Part shown: in pieces, positions 1,100 to 14,917 of the stretch
Numbering within the stretch: position 1 is the stretch's first letter
Layout: the number at the start of each line of letters is the position of its first letter
Assembly: GCA_015228935.1 (NCBI GenBank)
Contig: JADGCO010000028.1
Coordinates: 1-45,196 of the forward strand
Length of the DNA: 45,196 nucleotides
Direction: 5' to 3'
Origin: Magnetococcales bacterium
GTDB lineage: Bacteria; Pseudomonadota; Magnetococcia; Magnetococcales; DC0425bin3
Notes under the pieces: model-generated
Told to the model about the DNA's origin: nothing
The model's database searches: none
The model's input: the letters and a program-made list of their open reading frames with translations, nothing else
Translations under genes and position numbers: made by a program

Positions 1100-1510
1100 A
1101 TGATGCAAACAGGCTATGAAGTAACCGATGACATGCTTCAGGAAATGGTGCAAACCATTGTACAGGAAGTCGATCCGATACGCATCGTGTTGTTTGGATC
1201 ACGGGCCGGCAACACTGCCCGTCCTGATTCCGATGTCGATCTGCTGGTGATTGAGGAAGCCCCCTTCGGCCCAACACGCAGCCGCCGGAAAGAGGCGGTG
1301 CGGCTTTGGTCGGCTTTGAAACAGTTTTATGTTCCCAAAGATATTCTGGTCTTTACCGAAAAGGAAGCACGTCACTATGAAGAAGTGTTTGACCATGTGA
1401 TCTATCATGCCATGCGGGAAGGCAGAATACTCTATGAAAGACCCCGAGCCGACAAAAACCTTGCTCCTGATGGCACGCAAGGATCTCAGATCAGCCAAAA
1501 TTCTTGCTGA
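1100..1510 (+). CDS. MNT-type nucleotidyltransferase (minimal nucleotidyltransferase, antitoxin-like)
   Basis: A small nucleotidyltransferase-fold protein of 136 residues. The signature LFGSRAGNTARPDSDVDLLV is visible, with GSRAG at 33-37 and the metal-binding pair Asp45/Asp47. MNT proteins usually act with a HEPN partner; in characterised MntA/HepT modules the MNT protein AMPylates and neutralises the HEPN RNase. The next gene encodes a HEPN protein and begins inside this one, as expected for such modules. The last 25 or so residues, in the overlap, look like out-of-frame extension rather than conserved domain. Two ATGs, at 1100 and 1103, are possible starts. Whether this pair is a true toxin-antitoxin system is inferred. 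Confidence 0.85.
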   Translation: MMQTGYEVTDDMLQEMVQTIVQEVDPIRIVLFGSRAGNTARPDSDVDLLVIEEAPFGPTRSRRKEAVRLWSALKQFYVPKDILVFTEKEARHYEEVFDHVIYHAMREGRILYERPRADKNLAPDGTQGSQISQNSC

Positions 1511-1832
1511 AGCCGTTGACCCGGAATCAGAAGCTGTCGGATTTCATTTGCAACAAGCTGTAGAGAAGTCTCTGAAAGCATGGTTGAATTGGTGTCAAGT
1601 GATTTCACCCAAGACCCATGATTTGAGATTGTTGCTTTCCGCTTTGGAAAAAGCAGGGGAGGATGTATCCCCGTTTCTTTTCTTGGAAGAATTAAACCCG
1701 TTTGCAGTTCAATTTCGTTATACACTTTACGATGATGAACCTTTTACTTGGTCAGAACTTCAGGAGCAGGTCAACGAACTGGTCACTCATGTGGAAACCA
1801 TGACTGGTCTGCTCGTCGGCAAGTCACCGTAA
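1434..1832 (+). CDS. HEPN domain protein (partner of the MNT nucleotidyltransferase)
   Basis: A 132-residue all-helical HEPN-domain protein (PF05168-like). Family features are KDLRSAKIL near the N-terminus, then GFHLQQAVEKSLKAWL and the downstream THDLRLLLSAL helix. I do not see a clean RxxxxH RNase motif of the toxic HEPN class, so it may be a non-catalytic or differently acting member. The ATG at 1434 overlaps the MNT reading frame by 77 bp in another frame. An in-frame upstream ATG at 1407 would add nine residues but lies deeper in the MNT gene. The overlap implies translational coupling. In characterised pairs the HEPN protein is the RNase toxin and MNT the antitoxin; that role is inferred here. 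Confidence 0.82.
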   Translation: MKDPEPTKTLLLMARKDLRSAKILAEAVDPESEAVGFHLQQAVEKSLKAWLNWCQVISPKTHDLRLLLSALEKAGEDVSPFLFLEELNPFAVQFRYTLYDDEPFTWSELQEQVNELVTHVETMTGLLVGKSP

Positions 1833-1897: not shown

Positions 1898-2335
1898 ATG
1901 TCCGCCAAACCAGCCGCCAAACGCTTCATGATCGCCATCGGCCTGGGTGCCGCCTTCGGATATCTCTGCATTCGACTGGCCGCCCAGCACCAGCCCGAAC
2001 TGGCCTCCCTCACCCACCCCATTTTCTGGACCATCATGACGGATCGCATTCTGATCGGCCTGGTCGTGGCCCTGGCCGGGGCCTATACGACCCATCCGGT
2101 GCTGGGCTTTCCTTTTCGTCCATTGGTGCGGGGATCATGCCTGGGCGTCATGGTGTCGCTCCCCCTGGCTGCCGGAGCCTTGGCCGGTCCCGGAAACCCC
2201 ATGGCAAGCCCCTGGATGATATTCGTTCTCACCCTGGTTGCCGGTGGCGTGTATGGCGTCATCATTGACCTTGTGGCCACCCGGATTGGGGGCGAAGGGT
2301 CGGCGTTGCTCCAGAGCAACCGGCCTGTATCCTGA
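1898..2335 (+). CDS. Small integral membrane protein of unknown function
   Basis: I do not recognise a named family. The protein has 145 residues and about four hydrophobic segments: FMIAIGLGAAFGYLCIRLAA near residues 10-29, ILIGLVVALAGAY near 52-64, LGVMVSLPLAAGALA near 82-96, and WMIFVLTLVAGGVYGVIIDLVA near 106-127. It ends in a short polar tail. The ATG at 1898 is preceded by a GGAGG about eight bases upstream, which argues against the longer frame that opens at 1748 inside the HEPN gene. It stands alone between the MNT/HEPN pair and a region poor in genes. A cytoplasmic-membrane location is predicted from sequence only. Confidence 0.7.
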   Translation: MSAKPAAKRFMIAIGLGAAFGYLCIRLAAQHQPELASLTHPIFWTIMTDRILIGLVVALAGAYTTHPVLGFPFRPLVRGSCLGVMVSLPLAAGALAGPGNPMASPWMIFVLTLVAGGVYGVIIDLVATRIGGEGSALLQSNRPVS

Positions 2336-2456
2336 GGACGCGCGTGCCGCAATGCCCAGGGATTCATAATATTGGCCCGTAAATTGCTTGAATTTTCGTG
2401 ACTCTTGTCAGTCGAACCGAAAATTGCCTGCAATGGGCCAAGGACCCTTTAGGAAC

Positions 2457-2768
2457 ATGCCTGATCTCCAGCCGAATGAATCCCTGCATCCCCTCCTGAG
2501 CGCGGAACTACGGAGCCTGCTCCGCTGGTCGGAGAGAAAAGACGACAGCACCTGGGCACATTGGCGTGCTTTGGAAAGCATCGTCGGCCCCTTGCTGGTC
2601 GTCAAGAATGAGGAGCAAACCAACGGCTCAGGCTGCGACCCCCTGGAAAACATTTCTGCCATGCCAGGCATGACCGTTATGGAAACGGTTGATTTTGCGG
2701 GTCAACACCCAGAAATCGCCAGGAGTGCAACATTATTGACAGCGTCAAGATATCAGCGTGTAGCCTGA
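2457..2768 (+). CDS. Doubtful small ORF, hypothetical
   Basis: An open frame of 103 codons from an ATG at 2457, or 126 from 2388. The product starts MPDLQPNESLHPLLSAEL and has no motif I recognise, no signal peptide and no membrane segment. An AGGA lies very close to the ATG, giving poor spacing. The N-terminal half has a plausible amphipathic helical composition, and the C-terminal half is nondescript. It lies just before the tandem hairpin elements at 2791-2931. It may be a real lineage-specific gene or a chance open frame; codon-usage or homology data would decide. Confidence 0.3.
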   Translation: MPDLQPNESLHPLLSAELRSLLRWSERKDDSTWAHWRALESIVGPLLVVKNEEQTNGSGCDPLENISAMPGMTVMETVDFAGQHPEIARSATLLTASRYQRVA

Positions 2769-2790
2769 CACCATACAGCTCTGTCATGAA

Positions 2791-2848
2791 CTGAATCCGG
2801 AAGAGGGTCTCCCCTCCCTGACTCCTCTTGCTCCCTTTTCCGATTCAG
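2791..2848. repeat. Hairpin element, copy A
   Basis: An imperfect inverted repeat: CTGAATCCGGAAGAGGG on the left pairs with CCCTTTTCCGATTCAG on the right. The unpaired interior is pyrimidine-rich and contains TCCCTGACTCCTCTTGCTCC. The same interior recurs in copy B (2872-2931), with the two elements 82 bp apart. The outer stem differs by paired changes (GAATC/GATTC here, GGATC/GATCC in copy B). It lacks a T-run on either strand, so it is not an obvious intrinsic terminator. A diverged third member is at 5120-5170. Confidence 0.6.
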
Positions 2849-2871
2849 GAATTCACGCCTGCGACAGATTG

Positions 2872-2931
2872 ATTGGATCGGGAATGGGACTCCCCCTCCC
2901 TGATTTCCCTTGCTCCCCATCCCGATCCAAT
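2872..2931. repeat. Hairpin element, copy B
   Basis: A perfect 12-bp outer stem (ATTGGATCGGGA with TCCCGATCCAAT) encloses an interior of about 36 bases containing CTCCCTGATTTCCCTTGCTC. Alignment with copy A shows the interior conserved and the stem changed in a compensatory way. It lies in the gap upstream of the HicB-like gene. The function is unknown. REP-type or small structured RNA elements are the usual explanations for such elements, but I recognise no named family. Confidence 0.62.
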
Positions 2932-3023
2932 AGGCCATGAACCCTGTCGTGTTTCAGACACGCCCACGGAATAGAACTGTTCATGGGTGGTCATCGCTGG
3001 ATGCTGAATAGGGACACATTGAA

Positions 3024-3215
3024 ATGATCATGCAACTGACGGCGGTATTCAAAAGAGTACCGGAAGGCTTCATCGGTTTTGTGGAAGAACTGCCTGGGGC
3101 AAATACACAGGGTAAGACCTTGCAGGAAACTCGGGATAACCTCGAAGAGGCCATTCAGATGGTTTTGGAAGCCAACCGCCTGATGGCTGAAGAGCTTCTT
3201 CCTGTTATCCGCTGA
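3024..3215 (+). CDS. HicB-like antitoxin-fold protein, apparently orphan
   Basis: A 63-residue protein with the compact HicB N-terminal fold. It shows a first strand (LTAVFKRVPEGFIGFVEELP), then GANTQGKTLQETRDNLEEAI and QMVLEANRLMAEE, close to the family pattern of GY/FVPELPG..TQG.T..EA..N..EAI. The family includes HicB antitoxins, which bind HicA mRNA interferases, and many orphan single-domain proteins of unknown role. No HicA-like frame is seen immediately up- or downstream, and no DNA-binding C-terminal domain is present. An AGGGA about nine bases upstream supports the ATG at 3024; a second ATG at 3030 is possible. It converges on the Sel1-repeat gene, whose stop lies seven bases away. 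Confidence 0.8.
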   Translation: MIMQLTAVFKRVPEGFIGFVEELPGANTQGKTLQETRDNLEEAIQMVLEANRLMAEELLPVIR

Positions 3216-3221
3216 CCGAGT

Positions 3222-4061
3222 TTACTCCCACATCCTGGGCATGGGTGCCGTGACAGATTCTGTCTTTTCAACCGGCTGTGTGACAGATTCTGGCATGGTA
3301 TTGCCGGGATTGTGACTCTCTCCCCGATCCATTTCGGCCAGGGCCTTGCTGGCCTGGGCGTGACCCTGCCTTGCCGCCAGTTCGAACCATTTACGGGCCG
3401 CGACCGGATCCGGTGGAGATCCCCTGCCCAGGGCGTAATGAAATCCCAGCATGGTTTGTGCGGCGGCAACACCTTGTTCCGCAGCTTTCCGACACCAATC
3501 CATGGACAACTTTTGATTGGCCTGGACAGATTTCCCCTCCGCATAGAGTGAACAAAGGTAGGCCTGGGCCACGGGATGACCACCCTTTTCGGCTGCCGTC
3601 TGAAACCACTTCAAGGATTCGGCATCATCCTGCGGTACCGTTGTGCCGCCCAGATATAAAAATCCCAGACGGGCCTGGGCCTCGACATGATCTTGTTGGG
3701 CGGCCTTGCGATACCATGGGGCGGCCTGCATGGGATCCCTGGCGACCCCCAACCCGTCTTCCAACATGCGTCCGACCAGATACTGGGAACGTGGATCCCC
3801 TTTCTCTGCCAACCGTCGGAAAAGATTGTACGCCATGCTCGGAAAGCCATTTTTGAGGGCCAGCACGGCTTCTTGGAACTCCCTGGCTGGATTGGCCTCT
3901 TTGGGAGAGGGGGATGCACTCCATCCCGTCCCGGACCACAGCGCAAGCACCAGAAAAACGGCCCAGCCGGCCAATGCCAGTTTTCCGACACCAACTCTCC
4001 CTCCCGACCCCTCCGGAGGGGCAATTTGAGCCGATTTCTTGACACCCATCGTGAACACCAT
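3222..4061 (-). CDS. Sel1-like (TPR-type) repeat protein, exported or membrane-anchored
   Basis: A 279-residue protein with one hydrophobic segment near residues 28-48 (LALAGWAVFLVLALW), consistent with a signal peptide or anchor ending around WSASPSP. About five Sel1 repeats follow over residues 70-245. Examples are AEKGDPRSQYLVGRMLEDG, AQQDHVEAQARLGFLYLGG, AEKGGHPVAQAYLCSLYAEG and AEQGVAAAQTMLGFHYALG. Sel1 arrays form protein-protein interaction solenoids, often in envelope or signalling complexes. The C-terminal 30 residues are polar and low in complexity. The start could instead be the ATG four codons in. The specific partner cannot be inferred from context. Confidence 0.85.
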   Translation of the reverse strand: MVFTMGVKKSAQIAPPEGSGGRVGVGKLALAGWAVFLVLALWSGTGWSASPSPKEANPAREFQEAVLALKNGFPSMAYNLFRRLAEKGDPRSQYLVGRMLEDGLGVARDPMQAAPWYRKAAQQDHVEAQARLGFLYLGGTTVPQDDAESLKWFQTAAEKGGHPVAQAYLCSLYAEGKSVQANQKLSMDWCRKAAEQGVAAAQTMLGFHYALGRGSPPDPVAARKWFELAARQGHAQASKALAEMDRGESHNPGNTMPESVTQPVEKTESVTAPMPRMWE

Positions 4062-5430: not shown

Positions 5431-6843
5431 CTATCCAAGCCTGTCCAGAAAACGGGTGCGAAAATGGACCCCCAGGCCCTCGGCAATCCGCCGACAGGCA
5501 GGAATGTCCACCCCTGCGGCCCCCTCGATGGCCGTGGCGGTGACATGGGGTACGTATGCCCGAACCAGGCGGAGAAAATCAAGCACTCCCTGGTAGGAAC
5601 CGGCCAGTGCGGGTTGACAGAGACGGTCGTAGGTCTCCTGATCCTGTGCGGTCAGGGAGACGGAAACAGCATCGATCAGGCCACGAAATCTGGGGGTCAC
5701 ATCCTGCCGATAGACCAGATTGGCCAGACCATCCGTGTTGAGACGGACCCGCTTGCCACCCCGGCGCTTGATCTCGGCAGCCACTTCGAGAATCACCGCC
5801 AAGCGCAGGGTGGGTTCGCCAAATCCGCAAAAAACCACCTCGTCATAAGAAGCCACATCCTCCCCCAGGGCCGCAATCAACTCCGCCGCCGTCGGGTTGC
5901 GGGTCAGGCTCAGGTCGTAAACGTGAACCTGCGGTTCATCACGCCACTTGGGGCAATATTGACAATGCAACGTGCAACCCCGCGTGACGTTGAGATAGAG
6001 TCCTCGGCCAATGGTATAGGCCAGAGTCTGCGGGGTGGCCGACGGCAGCAACCCTTCTGTCGCCGCAGCGATCCGAAATAATTTTTGGTAATTATGGGTC
6101 GTGGCAGCGGCAATTTCTGCCAGTGGAACCTGCCGCCGCTCGGCCAATGCCCGGGCAACGTGAATCACATGCGCCGGCACATTGCGCTTGCCACGAAACG
6201 GTACGGGAGCCAGATACGGGGAATCGGTTTCGATCAGAATGCGCTCCAGGGGGACTCTGGCCGCAATCGTGCGCAAGGCTTCCGCATTGCGAAAGGTGAG
6301 GACACCCGAAAAAGAGAGATAAAAACCGCGTGCCAAGGCCCAATCGGCCAACTCCTCCGAACCCGTAAAGCAATGAATGACCCCTCCCCGCCCTGGAATC
6401 CCCTCCTCTTCCAGGATCAACCGCGTGGCCGCTTCGGCCTCCCGGGTATGCACAATCAGGGGCAGCGCCGCAATGTGGGCGGCGCGAATGTGTTCGCGAA
6501 AGTTGGCCTCCTGAAGGGAACGCGGACTGTGATCATAATGATAATCCAGACCGGTCTCCCCAATGGCAACCACCTTGGGATGATCAGAATGCTCCAGGAT
6601 TGTCTGGGCCACAACCGTCTCTTCCCGGGCATGATGGGGATGAACCCCGACGCTCGCATACAGATGGGGAAATTTTTCCGCCATGGCACACAGCCGCCCG
6701 GCCTCGGCCAGCCGCGTCCCCACAGACGTGACATACCCCACCCCGGCAGCCTGGGCCGCCAGAAATATCTGCTCCCACTCGCCCTGAAAATCCGGAAAAT
6801 CAAGGTGGGCATGGCTGTCCGCAAAAATCATGGGATCCGACAT
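5431..6843 (-). CDS. TatD-family metal-dependent hydrolase fused to a radical SAM domain
   Basis: A 470-residue two-domain protein. Residues 1-260 form a TatD/YcfH-like DNase domain. It shows DSHAHLDFPDF (metal-binding HxH), GVHPHHA, VAIGETGLDYHYDHS, HTREAEAAT, GVIHCFTGS and ETDSPYLAPVPFRGKRN. After a short linker a radical SAM domain begins with YLNVTRGCTLHCQYC, which holds the CX3CX2C iron-sulfur motif. It continues with VVFCGFGEPTL and VRLNTDGLAN. TatD proteins are 3'-5' exonucleases or deoxyribonucleases. A TatD-linked radical SAM family is known to me, but its substrate is not. The ATG at 6843 lies four bases after the ricT stop, so the genes are coupled. The fusion is in a single open frame with no frameshift. 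Confidence 0.9.
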   Translation of the reverse strand: MSDPMIFADSHAHLDFPDFQGEWEQIFLAAQAAGVGYVTSVGTRLAEAGRLCAMAEKFPHLYASVGVHPHHAREETVVAQTILEHSDHPKVVAIGETGLDYHYDHSPRSLQEANFREHIRAAHIAALPLIVHTREAEAATRLILEEEGIPGRGGVIHCFTGSEELADWALARGFYLSFSGVLTFRNAEALRTIAARVPLERILIETDSPYLAPVPFRGKRNVPAHVIHVARALAERRQVPLAEIAAATTHNYQKLFRIAAATEGLLPSATPQTLAYTIGRGLYLNVTRGCTLHCQYCPKWRDEPQVHVYDLSLTRNPTAAELIAALGEDVASYDEVVFCGFGEPTLRLAVILEVAAEIKRRGGKRVRLNTDGLANLVYRQDVTPRFRGLIDAVSVSLTAQDQETYDRLCQPALAGSYQGVLDFLRLVRAYVPHVTATAIEGAAGVDIPACRRIAEGLGVHFRTRFLDRLG

Positions 6844-6847
6844 TTGC

Positions 6848-8188
6848 TCATTTCCCCCCTGACTCTTTCCCTCCGGTTGCACCGGCAGCCGTTTTGTTGG
6901 AATTGACCTGCTTTTCAGGACCTTTCTTTCTGCGGGTCCGCCGGCGCCGCCGGCGTTTTTCTGTGGCTTCCGCACTCATCCCGGGGGCAGACTCTTCCTT
7001 CTCGGGCACGGCAATCGGGTCATCTTCCTCTGGTTGCCCGGGATTGACTGCTTGAACCGTCGCCGGACAGTCCGGCTCTTCCTCCTGTGCGACAGGATCT
7101 TCTTCGTCTTTTTCCACACCGGGGTTTATCGGGACATCTTCGGGATTGATATAACTCAGTTCAGCAATAGGCAAGACGCCTTTGCCGCCCACTTCGTCGT
7201 GATACTGCACATCCGCCATGCCCCGAATGGGATGCACATTGCGGACCTGCACCTCCCGTCCATCCCGGGTACGCATCAGGCAGTTGACTTTGGGCAGGGT
7301 GCCGCGCAACGTGCGGTACAGATCGTTTTCAAAACCCAGACAACACATCAAACGGCCACACACCCCGGAGATGGCATCCGGATTGAGGGACAGCTCCTGA
7401 TTCTTGGCCATGCGGACCGATACCGGATGAAATTTTTCCAAATGTCCGGCACAACAAAAAATCTGCCCGCACGGTCCCAAACCGCTCAGCAACCGGGTTT
7501 CATCCCGGACACCAATCTGCCGCATCTCCACCCGCACCTGAAAATGCCGGGCCAGGATTCGGACCAACTCCCTGAAATCAACTCGATTTTCCGCCGTAAA
7601 ATAAAAAATGGCCTTGGTGCCGCCCGGCAAAAAAGTGACCTTGGAGAGTTTCATACCCAGACCCAACTCACGAATACTCTCCTTGCAGAGTACCCGTGCC
7701 CGAATTTCCCTCTCCTGCCGCCATTTCTGGAAATCGTGATCCGACCGGTTGAAAACCCGTTTGATATGCAGGACCGGTCCGGGAAACAGGCGCTCTGGAG
7801 GTGGGGCCTCTTCCTGATACGCGGCAAAAATGACCGTACCGTTCTCTTCGCCATGCCGGGTATCAATCACCACCGGGTCTCCAGAACGCAACATTGGCAA
7901 TCGGGCACCGACCCGGTACACCATGCAGGAGTTGGGCAGCCGGAGTCCGACAATCTGCCAGACGTCTCCCTGAACGACAGGCTCTGACGCCTCCCGTTCG
8001 ATTGGCTCCGAAATCATTTCGGTGGAATTTTCAGGAATTGCCTCGGTTTCGCTTTCCACATTCAAGGAGATGTCGGCTGACAGATCTTCCGGCTCATCCA
8101 CATGTTCCACAAGGGCGGCAAACGAAAATTCCGGTGAAGGTACATCCGTTGCAGAGTGCGTGTGAGGCCATGTTTTTGCGTGATTCAT
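6848..8188 (-). CDS. ricT: PSP1-domain protein RicT (YaaT-like)
   Basis: A 446-residue protein with a central PSP1 domain. It carries the paired cysteine motifs of the family: GPCGQIFCC, then GVCGRLMCCLGFE. In Bacillus subtilis RicT, the homologous cysteines contribute to an Fe-S-bearing complex that affects mRNA maturation; the role in proteobacteria is not established. An acidic, low-complexity N-terminal extension (residues 1-75) and a C-terminal tail rich in Glu/Pro and then very basic (RRRRRRTRRKKG) flank the domain and may bind nucleic acid. It sits between holB and tatD-rSAM, a placement found in several bacterial phyla. The ATG at 8188 is the only good start. Confidence 0.9.
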   Translation of the reverse strand: MNHAKTWPHTHSATDVPSPEFSFAALVEHVDEPEDLSADISLNVESETEAIPENSTEMISEPIEREASEPVVQGDVWQIVGLRLPNSCMVYRVGARLPMLRSGDPVVIDTRHGEENGTVIFAAYQEEAPPPERLFPGPVLHIKRVFNRSDHDFQKWRQEREIRARVLCKESIRELGLGMKLSKVTFLPGGTKAIFYFTAENRVDFRELVRILARHFQVRVEMRQIGVRDETRLLSGLGPCGQIFCCAGHLEKFHPVSVRMAKNQELSLNPDAISGVCGRLMCCLGFENDLYRTLRGTLPKVNCLMRTRDGREVQVRNVHPIRGMADVQYHDEVGGKGVLPIAELSYINPEDVPINPGVEKDEEDPVAQEEEPDCPATVQAVNPGQPEEDDPIAVPEKEESAPGMSAEATEKRRRRRRTRRKKGPEKQVNSNKTAAGATGGKESGGK

Positions 8189-14594: not shown

Positions 14595-14669
<75 letters not shown>

Positions 14670-14706
14670 GCACTTTACGGAGGCAAACAGGCATTGCAGA
14701 AGATTT

Positions 14707-14783
14707 TGGAGGCCGGGGTGGGATTTGAACCCACGAATAAAGGTTTTGCAGACCTCAGCGTTAGGCCACTTCGCCACCCGGCC
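14707..14783 (-). tRNA. tRNA-Cys (GCA)
   Basis: The acceptor stem GGCCGGG pairs with CCCGGCC; the anticodon loop CTGCAAA gives GCA; the T-arm is GTGGGTTCAAATCCCAC. CCA is encoded. It lies between two identical tRNA-Gly genes. The Gly-Cys order downstream of pgsA matches many proteobacteria. Confidence 0.96.
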
Positions 14784-14842
14784 ACACTCTCAAAACGTTC
14801 CTCTTGCAGCAGATCCATCCTTGTTCCTCTGGTGGAACAGGA

Positions 14843-14917
<75 letters not shown>

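Follow-up and report, generated by a model that had tools for sequence, protein, structure and literature searches.

The window (the whole stretch of 45,196 nt that was analysed) carries a small open reading frame (ORF) of about 103 aa on the + strand (2457-2768), which is directly followed at its 3' side by two hairpins, A (2791-2848) and B (2872-2931), on the same strand. The likely start codon of the small ORF is the ATG at 2457; in the ORF listing the frame opens at 2388. A HicB-like ORF (3024-3215, + strand, PF21748) begins 93 nt downstream of hairpin B, and a gene for a Sel1-repeat protein (3222-4061, minus strand, Pfam PF08238) runs convergently towards the hairpins. For comparison, the present genome (G000), two congeners (G001 and G002) and a family-mate (G003) were used. 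Orthologs of the small ORF are found in G002 (50% identity) and G001 (41% identity), and its N-terminal part of about 50 aa is conserved. The pairwise differences at codon positions 1/2/3 amount to 17/7/21, 19/10/26 and 19/12/24. Because the differences are fewest at position 2 and most numerous at position 3, the small ORF is, judged by this codon pattern, a real gene. No relative was found in Pfam, NCBIfam or PDB, and none outside the genus within the order. One candidate from the search for relatives, L061, was discarded, since this gene is unrelated and its matching frame is interrupted by stops.

Several other features of the region can be mentioned here. Upstream, overlapping ORFs for a nucleotidyltransferase (PF01909) and a HEPN protein (PF05168) are located at 1100-1832 (+ strand) and likely form an MNT-HEPN toxin-antitoxin pair. 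An ORF at 5431-6975 (minus strand) resembles, by eye, a fusion of a TatD-type metal hydrolase and a radical-SAM domain, and G002 has a counterpart close to its hairpin. A tRNA cluster, Gly-Cys-Gly, was identified at 14595-14917 (minus strand); both tRNA-Gly genes score 67.3 bits and may have arisen by duplication.

Structure of the hairpin pair

A and B form a 56-nt direct repeat (2792-2847 and 2874-2929) with 73% identity and a start-to-start distance of 82 nt. The earlier note had described two elements 82 bp apart with a shared interior, and they were located as it had said: the interior CTCCCTGANTYCYCTTGCTCCC, with up to three mismatches allowed, occurs twice in the window and in none of 100 shuffles. 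It had also spoken of three candidate copies, of which the window holds two. On the + strand each element folds into one stem, capped by an open loop of some 25 nt. Hairpin A (-22.5 kcal/mol, z -2.6) consists of the stem CTGAATC[C]GGAAGAGGG / CCCTTTTCCGATTCAG and the open C-rich loop TCTCCCCTCCCTGACTCCTCTTGCT of 25 nt. Hairpin B (-25.4 kcal/mol, z -2.4) has a 12-bp stem, ATTGGATCGGGA / TCCCGATCCAAT, with inner GGG/CCC pairs and a loop that contains CTCCCCCTCCCTGATTTCCCTTGC; it was also detected as an inverted repeat (2872-2889 / 2914-2931). When the minus strand is folded, A favours a different structure and B retains the same hairpin with an open loop. The loop cores are located at 2814-2835 (CTCCCTGACTCCTCTTGCTCCC) in A and 2896-2917 (CTCCCTGATTTCCCTTGCTCCC) in B, and the loops are composed of 16-17 C, 9 T, 1-2 A and 2 G. 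Pairing is also possible between the 3' arm of A (2832-2848) and the 5' arm of B (2873-2889), which would allow the hairpins to swap partners.

Between A and B, 15 of the 56 positions differ, 10 of them in the arms. Changes on both sides of a pair are seen at the element positions 3/54 (A-U to G-C), 13/45 (A-U to G-C) and 12/46 (G.U to U-A), and the changes at positions 7 and 48 are jointly offset by a register shift of one base. The paired substitutions had been placed in the outer stems, GAATC/GATTC in A and GGATC/GATCC in B. These were quoted correctly, but in only one of their five pairs have both bases changed (A-U to G-C); the other two double changes and the offset register shift are located deeper in the stem. 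When the same number of arm bases was substituted at random, hairpins at least as stable as the real one were obtained in 39 of 20,000 cases from A to B and in 726 of 20,000 from B to A. Permutation of the real base changes over the arms gave 159 (A to B) and 557 (B to A) hairpins that were at least as stable. The compensation of the stem between A and B is thus moderately supported by the substitution and permutation trials. The column-wise covariation that the earlier note had proposed to check can be computed from four copies only and has no statistical power, as values at least as high as the observed ones arise in 73-196 of 500 shuffles.

Conservation within the genus and search for further copies

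A covariance model was built from four copies (A, B and the hairpins of G002 and G001) and run on 48 genomes of the order; four genomes were re-searched under laxer filters. A and B reach 71.3-75.2 bits, the G002 copy 70.5 bits and the G001 copy 48.6 bits. Since these copies are the ones from which the model was built, their own high scores are expected, and the informative result is the gap below them: nothing else exceeds 30 bits in the 48 genomes. The matches of up to 30 bits mostly lie in long open frames or in hairpins with short loops. All four copies are located between the same convergent genes, the small-ORF ortholog and the Sel1 gene, whose orthologs adjoin the hairpin in G002 and G001. 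From the stop codon of the small ORF to the start of the hairpin, the distance is about 22 nt in G000, 40 nt in G001 and 72 nt in G002. Two copies occur in G000 only, with one each in G001 and G002; because the congeners have a single hairpin, the second hairpin of G000 is probably a lineage-specific tandem duplication. In G003 the small ORF is absent and no strong hairpin was found.

Local alignment of the intergenic regions gave a score of 55 for G000-G002 (maximum 37 in 1000 shuffles) and of 39 for G001-G002 (maximum 32 in 1000 shuffles). It is weaker for G000-G001, with a score of 28 that was reached by 9 of 1000 shuffles. The core of B shares about 85% identity with the G002 core, against only 50-58% for the flanking proteins, and the hairpin is therefore probably under selection. 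The loop core of A is common to B and the G002 copy, and the loops of all three contain CCCUCCC. In G001 it is replaced by a pure C/U run in which the otherwise conserved letters TGA and CTTGC are missing. Across the copies the loops contain 52-68% C and 0-2 G, and 75-96% of their bases are unpaired when the + strand is folded. The selection for structure plus loop sequence that had been suggested agrees with these results, since the stem is compensated and orthologous hairpins are located at the same site in both congeners; the element is thus probably a functional RNA.

Whether the element is present at further loci was analyzed in the own genome and beyond. BLAST and pattern searches of the own genome gave chance matches only. 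The best of these matches (C33:17666-17687) is located inside a gene for an AAA ATPase (L022 1989-3116), MoxR-like by eye, and was discarded as a copy. At the same place (L022 713-3116) a TIR-like gene adjoins the MoxR-like AAA ATPase gene, also judged by eye, and the two may form a defence pair. Loop B and the mRNA of this AAA gene are complementary along 16 nt, with a duplex energy no better than chance. The exact loop pattern has 0 matches outside the order in 85k genomes, and no source of the pattern was found in phages. In a hairpin census of the present genome, which covered a 1.2-Mb sample, there is no other intergenic hairpin with a long C-rich loop. The census also recorded a 20-bp inverted repeat with a 46-nt loop, CCGGATTCGGGAAGGCCGTT (L131 4081-4166), the right arm of which is followed by a repeat of GAAGGCCGTT. 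In two other genomes of the order, G018 and G039, a hairpin with a C-rich loop is conserved (L074 1501-1548 and L075 1501-1548), at an unrelated position near a gene for a sigma-54-type regulator and an RNase HII-like gene (both by eye). It resembles the loop described here (ACCCCCTCCCCGATTCCC) but its flanking genes are unrelated, and we judged the likeness to be a coincidence.

The model search of the own and related genomes, as it had been suggested, thus recovered copies in relatives, and the lack of further copies, which the earlier note had named first among the results that would refute it, was not observed. The element is not a multi-copy one, as the present genome has no second locus. 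Like REP/BIME and MITE-type dispersed palindromes, the elements are paired imperfect palindromes between genes. Those palindromes, however, occur in many copies at unrelated loci, whereas here a single locus at an orthologous position and no dispersed copies were found. A dispersed palindromic repeat was rejected because the element occurs only at the syntenic locus. Read from the sequences, the hairpin element, with its conserved loop and stem and its fixed position, is genuine, conserved, limited to the genus and confined to a single locus.

Possible roles as transcript end, DNA element or leader

No T-run follows A or B on either strand, no terminator-like site was detected in 2200-3300, and no promoter is recognisable at the locus. 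An intrinsic (Rho-independent) terminator was rejected because no U-tract follows the hairpins, in agreement with the earlier note, which had excluded a simple terminator on the same ground. Canonical terminators also differ in appearance from A and B. In the present genome they are rare, with 7 in 110 convergent gaps in a simple scan. An element at the 3' end of the transcript is the main rival of a regulatory RNA, and we regard it as possible though rather unlikely. The C-rich, G-poor loops would load Rho in the manner of rut sites, the stems would block 3' exonucleases, and the convergent gene would be shielded from read-through. The position between convergent genes just after a stop codon, the rarity of canonical terminators and the composition of the loops all fit such a function. 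The likeness to rut sites and to stabilising 3'-end hairpins is seen in the C-rich, G-poor sequence at a transcript end and in a hairpin without a U-tract. However, a C-rich, G-poor run was seen at 8 of 376 gene ends and, upstream of genes, in 12 of 398 cases. With no excess behind genes, such runs are not a general termination signal in this genome, nor a general feature of its gene ends. Rho prefers long open RNA, whereas A and B each close into a stem that flanks the C-rich part. In addition, the loop core including TGA and CTTGC is kept between G000 and G002 more strictly than the loading of Rho should need.

The earlier note had left open whether the structure acts in RNA or in single-stranded DNA; RNA of the + strand fits better, because the hairpins follow the stop codon of a + strand gene and their loops are open on this strand. 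A DNA element, either a G-quadruplex of the minus strand (with an i-motif of the + strand) in a cruciform-like stem or a protein-bound site, is in our view improbable. In its favour, B and the G002 copy, read on the minus strand, contain four tracts of at least 3 G with loops of up to 7. The + strand loops of all copies have G4Hunter scores between -1.4 and -2.1, and the open-loop fold of B is formed on the minus strand as well. A quadruplex of three tetrads is not conserved, however, as one G-tract is broken in A and G001 has three long tracts only. The conserved letters other than G would also be unexplained, and the site lies after the stop codon of an ORF, not at a promoter or an origin.

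It is still less probable that the palindromes have no RNA function, having been kept or re-made by template switching at quasi-palindromes, with the likeness of A and B due to a recent tandem duplication. Template switching also produces paired stem changes, and A and B have clearly arisen by tandem duplication. This reading leaves unexplained, however, why the loop is conserved across species whose neighbouring proteins are only 50-60% identical, and why each of the three species has retained a hairpin at this site. A leader of the HicB-like ORF (riboswitch, attenuator or thermometer), suggested by tandem hairpins upstream of a + strand ORF and by the possible pairing of A with B, is very improbable, since this ORF is present at the site in G000 only and both congeners keep the hairpin without it.

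A candidate regulatory RNA in the 3' untranslated region

We tentatively favour the reading that A and B are a regulatory RNA element with exposed C-rich loops which acts on other mRNAs, because the alpha-r14/cuckoo RNAs and the CcsR RNAs downstream of ccaF1 show a matching pattern: a stem that drifts but stays paired and a conserved, single-stranded C-rich loop, in tandem copies right behind a short gene. The hairpins would belong to the 3' untranslated region of the small gene 2457-2768 and be transcribed with the + strand, the element being tandem-duplicated in G000 and kept as one copy in the congeners. The stem would serve as a scaffold whose sequence drifts while the pairing is retained, and would present the C/U-rich, G-poor loop of about 25 nt as a single strand. 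Most likely, the loop would base-pair with G-rich purine stretches of other mRNAs, e.g., Shine-Dalgarno regions, and it may act within its own mRNA or as a small RNA cut from the mRNA 3' end. Transcription, processing, targets and the direction of regulation are thereby what we infer. Several points weigh against a regulatory RNA: no promoter or terminator is recognisable, TGA and CTTGC are lost in G001, there are four copies only, and no target is supported by duplex prediction, as shuffled loops are predicted to pair at least as strongly with the mRNAs in the genome sample. An Rfam search revealed no family at the gathering threshold over the hairpins and, up to E 10, only two chance miRNA models, so that the element has no named family; the earlier note had recognised none either.

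The alpha-r14/cuckoo small RNAs are found in Alphaproteobacteria, and their loops base-pair with Shine-Dalgarno-type stretches of mRNAs. In NfeR1, an alpha-r14 RNA, the loop motif pairs with the translation initiation region. The alpha-r14 RNAs have three hairpins, each with an anti-Shine-Dalgarno motif in its unpaired part, and the stems diverge strongly in sequence (PMC10746234). The element described here resembles NfeR1 and its relatives in the constant C-rich motif in an unpaired region, the varying stems and the presence of more than one hairpin per locus. Hairpins with a conserved loop and varying, compensated stems are indeed found, two in G000 and one each in G001 and G002. In contrast to the alpha-r14/cuckoo RNAs, which have the CCUCCUCCC motif unpaired in each hairpin, the loops here lack an exact CCUCCUCCC. 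They are about 25 nt long, occur in one or two copies, are not followed by a terminator hairpin and have no match in Rfam. Membership in this family was rejected because the exact CCUCCUCCC motif, the DUF1127 gene and the terminator are all missing.

A short upstream gene provides the transcript from which RNAs of the CcsR type are processed (PMC10253847). At the CIN1 loci, ccaF1 (DUF1127) is followed by CcsR1-4, and the present locus resembles them in that tandem RNAs, here putative, come immediately after a short protein gene. CIN1 has a DUF1127 gene and a Rho-independent terminator at its 3' end; neither is present here. The locus was not assigned to CIN1, as the small ORF has no Pfam or NCBIfam family and no terminator was found in 2200-3300.

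It is conceivable, if rather doubtful, that A and B represent an undescribed class of 3'-UTR small RNAs of one Magnetococcales genus, in which one or two C-loop hairpins accompany a new small protein and an anti-Shine-Dalgarno design was reached independently of the cuckoo RNAs. In a limited literature search, no paper on small RNAs of this bacterial group was found. The hairpin pair and its own small gene offer a compact test of whether regulatory RNAs with C-rich loops arise repeatedly outside the alphaproteobacterial cuckoo family. If the element acts at the transcript end instead, it would be a non-canonical gene end in a lineage that, by the simple scan, has few classical terminators.
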